Below are positions 44,422 through 50,288 of a stretch of 64,000 nt of DNA, one piece after another (position 1 is the stretch's first letter; the number at the start of each line of letters is the position of its first letter). The stretch lies in the NCBI GenBank assembly GCA_016192145.1, contig JACPUT010000004.1, positions 1 to 64,000 of the forward strand, in the 5' to 3' direction. The stretch comes from Acidobacteriota bacterium. Lineage in GTDB: Bacteria; Acidobacteriota; Holophagae; Holophagales; Holophagaceae. The position numbers and the translations under genes are program-made. Under the pieces are notes generated by a model. The model searched no databases, was not told the DNA's origin, and saw nothing but the letters and a program-made list of their open reading frames with translations.

Positions 44422-44572
<151 letters not shown>

Positions 44573-44584
44573 GTGGGATCGCGG

Positions 44585-44804
44585 AGACAGCGCGGGGCGC
44601 TGTCTGTGGGGAGACGACGGTTTTGGCGCTACGGCCGCTTTGGCGCAGGCGCCGGAATCCCTTGATTGACGCGGGTTCCCGCGCGTTGCGGCGGCGTGCG
44701 GTTGACGCGCTCGGTTTGGCGCAATTTTGCGCTTCCTGTCCGAAAGCAGCAGGATGTTGCGCCTGCTTTGGCGCGAAACCGTCCGGTTTCCAGCCGGAAG
44801 TGGC
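44585..44804. promoter_or_regulatory. Prophage left-end region with TTTGGCGC and GTTGACGCG repeats
   Basis: No gene. A 9-bp stem hairpin AGACAGCGC/GCGCTGTCT lies at 44585-44605. TTTGGCGC occurs four times at 44622, 44639, 44715 and 44767. ATTGACGCG (44665-44673) and GTTGACGCG (44701-44709) also occur, the same motif that is repeated inside the transposase gene. Mu-type ends hold several transposase binding sites, and these repeats are the best candidates. Confidence 0.6.
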
Positions 44805-45533
44805 CTACCAGTCCTCTTCCGGAGGATCGGTGTCGAGGAGGTAACGACCGACCCAGACGACGCGGCCCAGGATCATCTGGTGCAGCGGGGCCCCCTCCAG
44901 GTCCACCATGACCGTCGGATAGGCCCGGTTGTCGGAGGCCAGAACCAGCTGGCCTTTGGCCTTATCCAGGCGGACGCGCTTCACGCGGGCTTCGTTGTCC
45001 TCGGGGCTTCGGCGGACCAGGTAGATGCCGTTGTTCTTGGGTTCCATGCGGATCTGCATGGCCGCGTTCAGGAGCACGATTTCCTTGTCCTGGATCGTGG
45101 GGCTCATGGACTCCCCGCGGCAGAGCAGGAAGAACAAATCCTCCTCCTTCCCGCCACCACATCGCTGAAGGATCCGGGCTGCGAAGTCGCGCCTCAGCGC
45201 GTAGCGGCTGGCGTCCGGGCCTGGATCCTGCACCTCGCCGCCGGATCCGCAGGTGGCCGCGCCCACGATCAAGGGACGATCCAGGAAAGCCTCCTCCATG
45301 GAGGCCTGGCGGGCCGCGCCATCGGCCCACATGGGGCCTTCTTCCGATTCTAGCCAATTGATAGAAGCGCCCGTCACGGTGGCGAATGCCACGAGGGCTA
45401 CGAAATCGGGTTTCCGTTCTCCTGATTCCCACCGGGTCGCGGTAAGGGGAGTCATCTTCAAACGGTCTGCCAGCGCGGCCTGGGACCACCCGCGGGCCTT
45501 CCTCACGGTTCTGATTCTTTCGGATAGTTCCAT
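44805..45533 (-). CDS. Phage repressor, XRE HTH with S24 autocleavage domain
   Basis: 242 residues. The N-terminal HTH (WSQAALADRLKMTPLTATRW, residues 16-35) is followed by an S24/LexA-type domain: a possible cleavage pair Cys95-Gly96, catalytic Ser142 (RGESMSPT) and Lys185 (ARVKRVRL). Such repressors keep lysogeny and cleave themselves on the SOS response, unlike the classic Mu c protein. It is divergent from the Ner gene, so both share the operator region 45534-45642. Confidence 0.85.
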   Translation of the reverse strand: MELSERIRTVRKARGWSQAALADRLKMTPLTATRWESGERKPDFVALVAFATVTGASINWLESEEGPMWADGAARQASMEEAFLDRPLIVGAATCGSGGEVQDPGPDASRYALRRDFAARILQRCGGGKEEDLFFLLCRGESMSPTIQDKEIVLLNAAMQIRMEPKNNGIYLVRRSPEDNEARVKRVRLDKAKGQLVLASDNRAYPTVMVDLEGAPLHQMILGRVVWVGRYLLDTDPPEEDW

Positions 45534-45642: not shown

Positions 45643-45972
45643 ATGCCCCGTAAACCTGTCCACAGGCGGGTGGCCTACGGCCTGCCCCCCAGTGAAGAAG
45701 CCCGGTTGGAAAGCTTCTTCGGCATCCAAAAAGCCTTCGCCGGGGTGGTGAACCCCGACGGCAGCCTCAAGCCCGCGGCCATCAAGGCGCTCTTCGAGCG
45801 GTTCCAGATCAACTTCAAGGCCTTCGCGGGAGGGCTGGGCGTCAGCGACGCCTTTCTTCACGCCGTCATCGCCCGCCGCAAGCGGAACGTGAGGGTCGAG
45901 AACGCCATCGCGGAGCGGCTTGGCTTCGATCCTCATCGCCTCTGGGGCCGCAGTCCCCTCGACGCAGCCTGA
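45643..45972 (+). CDS. Ner-like HTH regulator
   Basis: 109 residues from the ATG (MPRKPVHRRVAYGL) with GGAG upstream; an upstream in-frame start gives an unlikely extension. The C-terminal part GVSDAFLHAVIARRKRNV and AIAERLGFDPHRLWGRS is typical of Ner/Nlp family HTH proteins, which in Mu turn off early transcription and the repressor promoter. It precedes the transposase gene by nine bases. Confidence 0.7.
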   Translation: MPRKPVHRRVAYGLPPSEEARLESFFGIQKAFAGVVNPDGSLKPAAIKALFERFQINFKAFAGGLGVSDAFLHAVIARRKRNVRVENAIAERLGFDPHRLWGRSPLDAA

Positions 45973-45981
45973 GAGACTCCC

Positions 45982-48294
45982 GTGGCGGCCTTGAATCCCA
46001 TGTCGGTTGACGCGATGGTTGACGCGACCCTTCGACCCTCGCATCAACCCAAAATCCGAGCGCGTCAATCGCTGAAACCCTCGGCAGGCCTCGTTTCCGG
46101 GTCCGGCGCGGCCGGGGCCTCGGTTGACGCGGTTGATGCGATGGTTGACGCGACGGTTGATGCGGTGGCCGCCCGCACGGTTGACGCGCCCGAACGTCTC
46201 CTCCCGCTGGCCGAGGCGGCGCTGCTCACGGGCACCACCAAGCAGAACCTCCATAAGCGGCTGGCCAAGACGGGGCTCTTCCGGGAACAGCTCTGCGAAA
46301 GCGGCCCCCACAAGGGCCGCATGATGAAGGTGATCCAGGCTGACGACCTCTTCCGGCTCTACCCGGAGGCCCGCGCGCGCTTCGAGGCCCGGACGAAGGC
46401 CCTGGTGACCATCCAGGAGGCCAAGGCAAGCCCGGCTGCCCCCGCGCCAGTGCCAGCGCCCGCCTCCGACGCTGAGTCCATGGCTTCGTTGAAGGATTGG
46501 CAGCGCCGCCGGATGGACGCCCGGATCACGATCCTGCGCCATCTCGACCACCTGCAGCGGGACCTGGGCTTGCCCCGTGACCGGGTGATCGCCCGGCTGG
46601 TGTCCGACGCAGATGCAGGGCGCCTTCCCCAGGATCTCCAGCCCTTGATCACCCTCGCCAACGCCCGCTCCGGCCAGCAGGGCAATCGGACGCTCTCCCG
46701 CCGGACCCTGCAACGCTGGGCCAAGGAAGCCCGACAGGGCCTCCAGTGCCTCGCCCCCAAGGCAGTGGCCTTTCAGGAGCCGCGCTGGGCGCGTGCCCTC
46801 CTGGACCTTTATCGCCAGCCCCAAAAGCCGAGCCTGCGCTGCTGCGTGGGACTTCTGCCCGGCGTCCTCCCCGTCAGCGTGACACCGCCCAGCTACTCCG
46901 CCGCGATGCGATGGATGACGAAGGTGGGCGAGATCGAGAAGAACCGGGGTCGGGTCCTGGAACGGGAGCTGAAGGCCCAGCTTCCCTTCAAGCGCCGCAC
47001 CTTCGCGGACCTTCTCCCGTTGGATGTCGTCTCCGCTGATGGCCACACCTTTGATGCCGAGGTCCGCCATCCCAACCACGGGCGGCCCTTCCGCCCGGAG
47101 ATCACCACGGTCGTGGACATCGCCACCCGCAAGGTCATCGGCTGGAGCGTCGGCCTGGCGGAGAGCGCCATCGTGGTCGCAGACGCCTACCGGCACGGGG
47201 TGCTCACCCACGGCGTCCCCGCCCTCTTCTACGCGGACAACGGCTCGGGTTACGACAACGCCCTGGTGCGCGCGCTGCTGGAGCGGATCGGCACCACCAT
47301 GAGCAACTCGCTTCCCTACAACTCCCAGGCCCGAGGGGTCATTGAGCGCCTCCAGAGGACCCTCTGGGTCGAGATGAGCGCGAAGCGCCTGCCTACCTAC
47401 ATCGGCCGGGACATGGATCGGCAGGCCAAGCAGATCGTCTACAAGCACACCCGCAAGGTGGAGGATTCCTCCGCGCTCATTCCCTGGGAAGCCTTCCTCG
47501 CCTTCGTGGACGCGGTCGTGGCCGCCTACAACGCCCGCCCCCATTCCTCCCTGGGAAAGCTGAAGGATGAAGGCACCCGGCGCGTCCGGTACCTGGCTCC
47601 CCTCGAGTCCTGGCAGATCTTTACGGACCAGGGCTGGACTCCCGAGGCCACGGTGGAGCGCCTGGACGAGCTGATGCCCCAGGAGGTTCGCAGCGTCCAG
47701 CGCGGCGAGGTGAACCTCTTCGGGAACGTCTACTTCTCGCGCGCCCTGACCGAATGGAACGGCTGCAAGGTCCGCCTGGCCTACGACGTCCACGACGGCG
47801 CCCGCATCTGGGTCCGGACCCTAGAAGGAATCTTCATCTGCGAGGCGGGCTTCCAGGCAAACGCCACGCGCTACTTCCCCGAGAGCGTCGTCGAGCGGGC
47901 CCGCACCGCGCGCCTGCAGGGCCAGTTGAAGCGCCTGGAGGACAAGGCCGGGCGCCTTCTCCCGAAGGAGGGCGGCCCCCAGGCCGAACTCAATGGACAG
48001 ACTCCCATCGATATCGAGGAAGTCACGGCTGAAACCATGGAGGTCAGCGCCCAACAGCTCCGCAAGCTCGGCCTGGAAGATCCCGTCGAGGTTCCTGGCG
48101 GCGAGGCCGACACACAGGAGTCCCCCAACCCGCGCCGCCGCCCCTTCTTCAAGGACGGGAAGGAATACGCCCTCTGGATCCTGGATCACCCGGAGGAAGC
48201 GGATCCGGAGGAACTGGCCGAAGTCCAGGTCCGCCTCCGCAAAGACCCCCTCTACCAAACCTGGCTCGGCCGCGACAGCGCGGCCTCAGCCTGA
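45982..48294 (+). CDS. Mu-like transposase A
   Basis: 770 residues from a GTG with GAGAG upstream; an ATG six codons on (46000) is an alternative. The N-terminal 70 residues are low-complexity VDA/VDAM repeats. A winged-helix-like DNA-binding part follows (LAEAALLTGTTKQNLHKRL), then the DDE integrase core: D353 (VVSADGHTF), D419 (FYADNGSG) and E455 (GVIERLQRTLW), spaced DD(35)E rather than the wider Mu spacing. The C-terminal Mu-type domain ends with a short acidic helical tail. It should cut and join the phage ends and drives replicative transposition with MuB. Confidence 0.9.
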   Translation: MAALNPMSVDAMVDATLRPSHQPKIRARQSLKPSAGLVSGSGAAGASVDAVDAMVDATVDAVAARTVDAPERLLPLAEAALLTGTTKQNLHKRLAKTGLFREQLCESGPHKGRMMKVIQADDLFRLYPEARARFEARTKALVTIQEAKASPAAPAPVPAPASDAESMASLKDWQRRRMDARITILRHLDHLQRDLGLPRDRVIARLVSDADAGRLPQDLQPLITLANARSGQQGNRTLSRRTLQRWAKEARQGLQCLAPKAVAFQEPRWARALLDLYRQPQKPSLRCCVGLLPGVLPVSVTPPSYSAAMRWMTKVGEIEKNRGRVLERELKAQLPFKRRTFADLLPLDVVSADGHTFDAEVRHPNHGRPFRPEITTVVDIATRKVIGWSVGLAESAIVVADAYRHGVLTHGVPALFYADNGSGYDNALVRALLERIGTTMSNSLPYNSQARGVIERLQRTLWVEMSAKRLPTYIGRDMDRQAKQIVYKHTRKVEDSSALIPWEAFLAFVDAVVAAYNARPHSSLGKLKDEGTRRVRYLAPLESWQIFTDQGWTPEATVERLDELMPQEVRSVQRGEVNLFGNVYFSRALTEWNGCKVRLAYDVHDGARIWVRTLEGIFICEAGFQANATRYFPESVVERARTARLQGQLKRLEDKAGRLLPKEGGPQAELNGQTPIDIEEVTAETMEVSAQQLRKLGLEDPVEVPGGEADTQESPNPRRRPFFKDGKEYALWILDHPEEADPEELAEVQVRLRKDPLYQTWLGRDSAASA
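46006..46188. repeat. GTTGAYGCG repeat cluster inside the 5' end of the transposase gene
   Basis: GTTGACGCG or GTTGATGCG in direct orientation at 46006, 46018, 46123, 46132, 46144, 46156 and 46180 (spacing 12 or 9 bases, then 24), plus inverted copies CGCATCAAC at 46040-46048 and CGCGTCAAT at 46061-46069. Two further copies lie at the phage left end (44665 and 44701). Translated, the repeat is VDA/VDAM. A protein-binding array doubling as coding sequence is likely. Confidence 0.75.
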
Positions 48295-48325: not shown

Positions 48326-49072
48326 GTGAAACGTCAGTTCGTCAAACTCAGCAACCTGCACCGCTTCATGGCAGGCTTGGACGCCTTGGAAAAGCGCGCC
48401 GCGCCAGAGGCCTGCATCATGGTCGTCACCTCCGAGCCCGGCTATGGAAAGACCCAGACCCTCCTCTGGTATTCCACGCAGAGCGCCGACGCCATCTACC
48501 TCCGCGCAAAAAGCGGCTACACCCGCCATTGGTTCCTCTCCGACCTCCTCCAGGAGCTGGGCGGCGTACCCACGCGGAGCAACGAGGAAATGTTCAAGGA
48601 AGCCGTGAAGCGCATGAAGGGCCGCAACTACGTCCTCATCCTCGACGAAGTGGAGCACGCCCTGGCCGACGCCCACGTCCTCGAAGCCCTCCGCGACCTG
48701 TCGGACATGCTGGAGACGCCGCTGGTGATGGTGGGCATGGACCAGGCCCAGGCGAAAATCGCCAAGCACCCCCAGATCTCCAGCCGCGTGGCCGTGGTGG
48801 TCCACTTCCAGCCTGCCAGCGTGGAGGACATTGCCCAAACGGCTAAAGATCTCCTGGAGGGCGTGACTCTCCAGGAGGATCTGGTGAAGGAGATCCAGAC
48901 CCAGACCAAGGGGCGGATGCGCGAAGTGATGAACGCCCTCGCCGTCTGCGAGCGCCTCGCCCGCCAGAGCAAGGCCGCCACGCTCTCCAAGGCCGACATG
49001 GATGGCCAGGAGCTGACCTACGACTGGCAGGCCAAGAAGGCCCGCGTCACCAAACTCAAGGTGGCCCGATGA
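48326..49072 (+). CDS. MuB-like AAA+ ATPase
   Basis: 248 residues from GTG with GGGAGG five bases before it. Walker A SEPGYGKT at residues 36-43 and Walker B VLILDE at 103-108. MuB-like proteins bind target DNA and hand it to the transposase, giving target immunity. The C-terminal part (TKGRMREVMNALAVCERLAR) resembles the helix-rich C-terminal domain. It follows the transposase by 31 bases and its stop overlaps the next start (ATGA). Confidence 0.85.
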   Translation: MKRQFVKLSNLHRFMAGLDALEKRAAPEACIMVVTSEPGYGKTQTLLWYSTQSADAIYLRAKSGYTRHWFLSDLLQELGGVPTRSNEEMFKEAVKRMKGRNYVLILDEVEHALADAHVLEALRDLSDMLETPLVMVGMDQAQAKIAKHPQISSRVAVVVHFQPASVEDIAQTAKDLLEGVTLQEDLVKEIQTQTKGRMREVMNALAVCERLARQSKAATLSKADMDGQELTYDWQAKKARVTKLKVAR

Positions 49073-49638: not shown

Positions 49639-49751
49639 ACACCGCCGGGCTCTGATCTCGACCCCTGAACAACGCCCCTTCGGTTTCCGAAGGCGGGCTG
49701 GGCCGTCTCGGCTCGGCCTCTCTCTCGTCTCCCTTTTCTTTGGAGGGCCCC

Positions 49752-50288
49752 ATGGCCACCACCCGCATCAAACCCACAGCCACCATCATCCGCAGCCTGG
49801 AACAGGCCGACGGCGCCCTGCACCAGATCGGCTCCCTGGAGCACCAGCTTCAGCAGGAGCAGGCCGACCTGGCCCAGCAGATCGAAGACATGAAGAAAGC
49901 CCTCCTGGAGCGCCAGGAGCCCCTGGTTTCCCGCCGCGAAAAGTTGCTGGAGGCGCTCGAAGCCTACGCCACCCATGAGAAGGAGGAGCTGTTTCCCGAT
50001 GGAGAGAAGCGCAGCATCGACCTCCCCTTCGGGACGCTGGGCTGGCGGCGCTCCAGCGAGGTCAGCCTCACGAAGAAATGCACCGTGGAGCACCTGGAAG
50101 GGCTGGGCCTCGCTGGTTGCGTGAACCTAAAGAAGACCGTCTCCAAGGCCGAGCTGGGCAAGCTGGACGACGCCCGGTTGCTGGAAGCGGGCGCCAAGCG
50201 GAACGAGAAGGATGGCTTCTTCGTGGAGCTGAACCGCGAGCGCCTGGAGGAGAGCTTCCGCAACGCCCAAAACCGGCGGAGCGCCTGA
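49752..50288 (+). CDS. Host-nuclease inhibitor Gam (Mu Gam family)
   Basis: 178 residues from the ATG with GGAGG seven to eleven bases upstream. Long coiled-coil N-terminus (EQADGALHQIGSLEHQLQQE, QIEDMKKALLER) and the Mu Gam C-terminal part (RRSSEVSLTKKCTVEHLEGLG, broken by turns, then NLKKTVSKAEL). Gam-like proteins bind DNA ends and protect linear phage DNA from host nucleases. A small hairpin (CCTTCGG/CCGAAGG) lies 70 bases upstream, in the leader. Confidence 0.85.
   Translation: MATTRIKPTATIIRSLEQADGALHQIGSLEHQLQQEQADLAQQIEDMKKALLERQEPLVSRREKLLEALEAYATHEKEELFPDGEKRSIDLPFGTLGWRRSSEVSLTKKCTVEHLEGLGLAGCVNLKKTVSKAELGKLDDARLLEAGAKRNEKDGFFVELNRERLEESFRNAQNRRSA

Follow-up and report, generated by a model that had tools for sequence, protein, structure and literature searches.

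A putative transpositional enhancer inside the transposase gene of a Mu-like prophage from an Acidobacteriota bacterium

Introduction

The transpositional enhancer of phage Mu is bound by the N-terminal Ialpha domain of the transposase MuA (PMC3362531, PMC3562280), which acts in transpososome assembly (PMC3562280), and the bending of the enhancer DNA by IHF aids transposition (PMC5847225). According to a survey from 2021, the enhancer-binding domain so far appears to be specific for Mu (PMC8705779). In our literature search we did not come across any transposable phage described as having its enhancer within the transposase gene; however, this search was limited and such absence is weak evidence. 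Direct repeats of 9 bp are bound head to tail by BldC, which represses by coating them (PMC5859096).

Here, we describe a repeat array in the transposase gene of a Mu-like prophage that lies partly in a stretch of 64,000 nucleotides of an Acidobacteriota genome (hereafter the window). It shares with the Mu enhancer (E, O1-O2) the multi-site character, the position nearer to the left end and the separation from the end sites, because in this 44.7-kb phage only 1.4 kb separate it from the left end, and its repeated word differs from the end-site sequence TTTGGCGC. As in Mu, the neighbouring transposase belongs to the MuA family and starts with a winged helix of the same fold, and the IHF consensus occurs in the betaproteobacterial arrays of this type, though not in the acidobacterial ones. 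However, the Mu enhancer lies between c and ner and is shared with the repressor operator, whereas the present array is placed within the transposase coding sequence and its word is independent of repressor and Ner. Unlike the Mu enhancer, it consists of short, nearly exact words whose layout is fixed, it adjoins its presumed reader, and it is swapped together with this reader. Phage D108 differs from Mu in the control region and the transposase N-terminus together, but there the repressor changes as well and ner lies in between, whereas in the phages described here array and winged helix change and the similarity of repressor and ner is retained. A paper on the D108 control region is cited in PMC3820752. 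The closest cultured transposases, with about 41-43% identity, belong to D3112-type phages (Casadabanvirus). The 5' end of the D3112 gene A showed no such array, and the repeats annotated in D3112 A were dismissed as a counterpart, because they are located in the 3' part of the gene and are unrelated. In canonical relatives the transposase starts directly with the Ialpha-like domain, unlike in the array phages. Finally, the MerR-like protein BldC has a similar winged helix (Z 6.0) and binds direct repeats (PMC5859096), but it is a free-standing transcription regulator, whereas the present winged helix is part of a transposase.

Results

The prophage and its left end

The Mu-like prophage comprises 44,685 bp, of which only the left part is inside the window. 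It is bordered on both sides by the 5-bp target duplication CTGTC and has the ends TGTG.../...TACA; the TGTGGGG start was also found in the related phages L017, L020, L022, L025, L028, L048 and L014. The genes follow the Mu-type order, i.e., repressor on the reverse strand, then the Ner-like gene, A, the MuB-like gene and, further downstream, Gam. The following features were assigned:

44605..44611, forward strand: left terminus of the phage, TGTGGGG... start (window 44600-44611)
Contig position 89289, beyond the window (L108:5280-5294): right terminus of the phage, ending with ...CCGTTACA
44622..44774, forward strand: TTTGGCGC left-end sites at 44622, 44639, 44715 and 44767, probably bound by the transposase as end sites
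44665..44673, forward strand: ATTGACGCG, a copy of the array word with one mismatch, 60 bp from the phage end
44701..44709, forward strand: GTTGACGCG, a lone exact copy without counterpart in relatives
44805..45533, reverse strand: S24/LexA-type repressor with Cro/CI-type HTH (PF00717 E=1e-11, PF01381 E=3e-11)
45643..45972, forward strand: Ner-like small HTH protein, encoded between the repressor and transposase genes, a position it shares with Ner of Mu and D3112 (PF13693 weak)
45982..48294, forward strand: transposase A of the MuA family, start GTG 45982 or ATG 46000
48326..49072, forward strand: putative MuB-like ATPase, an ORF directly 3' of A with a P-loop-like motif (GYGKT, Walker-type)
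49740..50288, forward strand: Mu Gam-like protein (PF07352 E=1e-31)

The assignment of transposase A is based on the match to Mu-transpos_C (PF09299, E=6e-18, above the cut-off), while the match to rve (PF00665, E=3e-5) stays below its cut-off; it is about 41% identical to A of D3112 over residues 165-693. The MuB family membership of the following gene product is inferred from its position. Inverted copies of TTTGGCGC are found close to the right end of the prophage, and L005, L014, L017 and L022 likewise have TTTGGCGC/G repeats at their left ends.

The earlier note on this DNA had listed two further copies of the array word at the phage left end. Both exist, one of them with a mismatch, but they are not conserved in the relatives. 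At +60, where the window has ATTGACGCG, the end-type sequence TTTGGCGCGG stands in L017 and L022, and the copy at 44665 is probably a variant end site. The left ends of these two phages contain no exact copy of the word, and none occurs outside the array in the examined stretches of L005, L025 and L048. We therefore rejected the left-end copies as members of the array, since they are not conserved and one of them is a probable variant end site; they probably lie outside the array proper, and the enhancer interpretation does not need them.

The insertion sites deserve a separate remark. The window prophage (flank 44425-44605) as well as L017, L020 and L022 are inserted approximately 90-125 bp downstream of tRNA genes (Pro, Pro, Pro and Ser; flanks L109, L110 and L111), and three of these four prophages adjoin the common host sequence CCTCCGAGTGGGATCGCGGAGACAGCGCGGGGCGCTGTC. 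Such an insertion at the side of tRNA genes is unusual for a Mu-like phage. It is not a general habit of the group, as no tRNA is present in the 2.4-2.7 kb left flank of L014 and L048.

The array in the transposase gene

The window contains 10 exact copies of the word GTTGAYGCG compared to 0.93 expected copies, and none of 100 shuffles reached 10. The array itself extends over 46005-46188 at the 5' end of the transposase gene and contains eight exact copies and one with a mismatch. Hence, the seven direct and two inverted copies reported earlier could be confirmed, with all seven direct copies and one inverted copy being exact and the other inverted copy (46061) reading ATTGACGCG. The sites are arranged as follows:

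46005..46026, forward strand: sites 1 and 2, GGTTGACGCG, direct, 12 bp spacing
46040..46069, reverse strand: sites 3 and 4, GTTGATGCG and ATTGACGCG, inverted, 21 bp spacing
46122..46152, forward strand: sites 5-7, direct, spacings 9 and 12, end of the layout common to the GGTGCAGCG phages (see below)
46155..46188, forward strand: sites 8 and 9, direct, additional copies in the window phage only
46195..46428, forward strand: winged-helix domain, MuA Ialpha-like, directly 3' of the array and its predicted reader

In the 221-bp array region the most frequent 8-mer appears 6 times, compared to a mean of 1.68 and a maximum of 3 in 1000 dinucleotide shuffles. The direct sites are spaced by 12, 105, 9, 12, 12 and 24 bp, i.e., always by a multiple of 3. 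Valine is encoded by GTT in 8/9 cases within the array but in only 5/87 (5.7%) in the remaining transposase and the other early genes (P = 1e-9), and the one further VDA of the transposase, which lies outside the array, uses the codons GTGGACGCG. The inverted copies encode residues unrelated to VDA. Because of the strong GTT bias compared to the 6% elsewhere, the array is, judged by its codons, a DNA-level element, the sites of which are under DNA-level selection.

Words and geometry in related phages

Related phages were found by transposase searches of viral contigs, genomes and phage records. They possess an array at the same place that is made of another word, and about ten different words are present across the set, which includes phages from acidobacteria and betaproteobacteria:

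L017: word GTTGTCGCG, one base off the word of the window
L005, L022, L025, L048: word GGTGCAGCG
L014: word GGTTCCTCT
L029: word GGTTCCGCG
L028: word AGGCGACAA, with a degenerate form in L020
L019: word GTTGCCCTG
L015: word GGTGGAAAC, array across the ner-A junction
L124: word GGTTGGCAA, array across the ner-A junction
L118 remnant: word GGTGCGAAC, array across the ner-A junction

In 12 of 13 regions, the window included, the observed 8-mer count was reached in none of 1000 shuffles; the degenerate array of L020 is not significant in this test when taken alone. The detection of exact words was also applied to the c-ner regions of Mu and SfMu as positive control and returned no excess, therefore degenerate sites escape this method and a missing signal elsewhere carries little weight. 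In a cross-match matrix each region matches its own word, with wide cross-matching only between the window and L017, whose words differ at position 5 in all five aligned sites. Likewise, L015 and the L118 remnant differ by identical base changes at several homologous sites, here in largely non-coding DNA.

The layout is shared more widely than the word. Seven core sites with identical spacings of 12 (direct-direct), 22, 21 (inverted-inverted), 62, 9 and 12 are present in the window phage, L005, L022 and L025, and most of this layout recurs in L048 and L017. In L014, L029, L019 and L028 the inverted pair has again the 21-bp spacing while the remaining gaps differ. When aligned by layout, the window and the GGTGCAGCG phages are only 29-40% identical, inside or outside the sites and no better than chance, therefore the layout is kept without the sequence. 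Among the GGTGCAGCG phages identity reaches 97% in the sites versus 54% between them, and third codon positions are 94% identical inside the sites, 49% between them and 43% in the adjacent downstream coding sequence. The earlier note had proposed this comparison of codon choice with site conservation and had regarded VDA residues kept with different codons as contrary evidence. The opposite was found, because the third positions are conserved inside the sites and no relative keeping VDA in other codons was found; the encoded residues rather shift along with the word (VDA, GAA or VPL) in an unchanged layout. The transposase frame stays open through the array in the relatives, and several sites of L015 and L124 fall outside this frame.

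Arrays containing the IHF consensus WATCAANNNNTTR were found in L015 and in the two L118 remnants, and in the c-ner region of Mu this pattern identifies one site (position 947). The consensus was not found in the array of the window and the other acidobacterial arrays.

The winged helix next to the array

The 222 residues following the array were modelled with AF2 (pLDDT 89) and compared with solved structures. The model has a winged-helix fold at the transposase N-terminus. Foldseek found no match at E<0.001 with the winged-helix model. A second-look structural aligner placed 1tns (MuA Ialpha) first of 999 chains (rmsd 3.3, 74/76 residues), but its Z of 6.2 is modest and nearly tied with DNA-bound BldC (Z 6.0), and such values may indicate a common fold only; the DNA-binding domain of the Mu repressor followed with Z 5.6. 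The Pfam family HTH_Tnp_Mu_1 has no match in the window protein, matches below the cut-off in L015 (E=0.0015) and L124 (E=0.0035), and clear matches in the canonical relatives L098, L030 and L043.

The identity of the winged-helix HTH separates phage pairs with the same word from those with different words completely (AUC 1.000; 12 phages, with 7 same-word pairs that are not independent). Lower values were obtained for the wing (0.90), the repressor (0.81), Ner (0.76), the end-binding Ibeta-gamma part (0.74) and the repressor HTH (0.54). Moreover, the identity of L025 and L029 amounts to 82.8% across 5.9 kb on the downstream side and to 72% on the upstream side, including repressor and ner, but their similarity is lost across 324/341 bp that correspond to array and winged helix, and the same applies to L025/L028. 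The swapped cassette contains no other gene. As these alignments indicate, array and winged helix are exchanged as a cassette between otherwise similar phages.

Discussion

We consider it likely that the array represents a transpositional enhancer that the transposase gene itself contains and that is read by the N-terminal winged helix, of the MuA Ialpha type, of the encoded transposase. The suggestion of the earlier note that the enhancer may sit in the transposase gene itself is thereby supported, with presumed binding and activity, by the word following the winged-helix HTH of the transposase and by MuA 1tns as top structural match of this domain. Several transposase subunits would sit on the TTTGGCGC end sites via their Ibeta-gamma domains, and the end-bound subunits would also grip the array with its approximately seven sites in a direct block, an inverted pair and a second direct block. 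Left end, array and right end would then be brought together before cleavage, as in Mu. Unlike in Mu, the array is separate from the repressor operator region and moves together with its presumed reader as one unit, hence every phage has a word of its own. It is also conceivable, although we suggest this tentatively, that array and reader act as an exchangeable identity tag, with each transposase assembling only on its own genome.

The main rival is an autoregulatory operator, on which the winged helix would shut off or roadblock its own gene without any role in end synapsis. The array position at the 5' end of A and the close structural match to BldC, which represses by coating direct repeats (PMC5859096), are in line with it, and the evidence on the binder suits it equally well. 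However, approximately seven rigid sites in mixed orientation exceed the needs of a simple operator, and the functionally known relative MuA Ialpha serves transpososome assembly (PMC3562280). Autoregulation as the explanation seems rather unlikely to us, but it is compatible with an enhancer role and the two are not mutually exclusive. Far less probable is that the VDA repeats form a functional peptide with the DNA repetition as by-product, which is hardly credible despite the direct spacings in multiples of 3 and the frame that is open in the relatives. The unrelated residues from the inverted copies, the GTT bias (P=1e-9), the encoding of VDA, GAA or VPL in the same layout and the sites of L015 and L124 outside the transposase frame stand against it, and no relative was seen to keep these peptide repeats while its codons vary freely.

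The array could also be the operator of the phage repressor or Ner, for which Mu provides a precedent, as its repressor and Ialpha share operator sites, and repeat arrays lie between repressor and ner in several canonical relatives. We regard this as very unlikely, because Ner and repressor are 64-78% identical among L025, L028 and L029 despite differing words, whereas L028 and L020 share a word with only 36% (Ner) and 37% (repressor) identity, and separate palindromes were seen by eye in the repressor-ner gaps of L005 and L017. Similarly improbable is hitchhiking, i.e., that another factor binds the array, which would then only be linked to the winged helix. The two adjoin, and this linkage alone could make them travel together, but the swapped cassette contains no other gene. 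Furthermore, the prophages L017, L020 and L022 of the single host genome G053 have end-binding domains with 94-97% identity but three words and three helices, and three words in one host genome argue against a host factor of fixed specificity as binder. The breakpoint between L017 and L022 even falls within the winged-helix domain, with 96% identity in the wing and 56% in the HTH, and the array stays with the HTH, not with the wing. Pure linkage becomes less probable with this breakpoint and with the concerted changes of the word, and the tracking and the swaps speak against a fixed-specificity host factor, Ner and the repressor as readers, as far as can be judged from sequence comparison.

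With the enhancer reading, the apparent enhancer described here combines approximately ten words, a conserved geometry, a co-inherited reader and the split from the repressor operator. The natural swaps offer a way to test the enhancer role apart from repression, to study how Ialpha reads DNA, and to test whether the enhancer serves transposable phages that share a host as a code for recognising themselves. If the identity tag were true, related transposable prophages with a near-identical catalytic body and end sites but different word/helix cassettes could share one cell, and none of them would mobilise the others or cause mispairing.

Some minor observations concern the relatives. An additional small Cro/CI-like HTH gene is situated between ner and A in L017 (L017:1097-1453) and was not found in the other members examined. 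In the L019 remnant, a second transposase-like frame (reverse strand, approximately 2130-2911), IS630-like by eye, apparently interrupts transposase A. The Craterilacuibacter genome (L118:1490-2120) harbours two adjacent remnants of array phages with the words GGTGGAAAC and GGTGCGAAC. Several 8-mers (CGGTTCCC and others) recur approximately every 30 bp upstream of a Mu-like transposase in L030:1-1240. The canonical Mu-like relatives L004, L032, L038, L047, L052, L059, L077, L090 and L098 instead have 8-10 bp repeat arrays around the gap between repressor and ner, each phage with words of its own.
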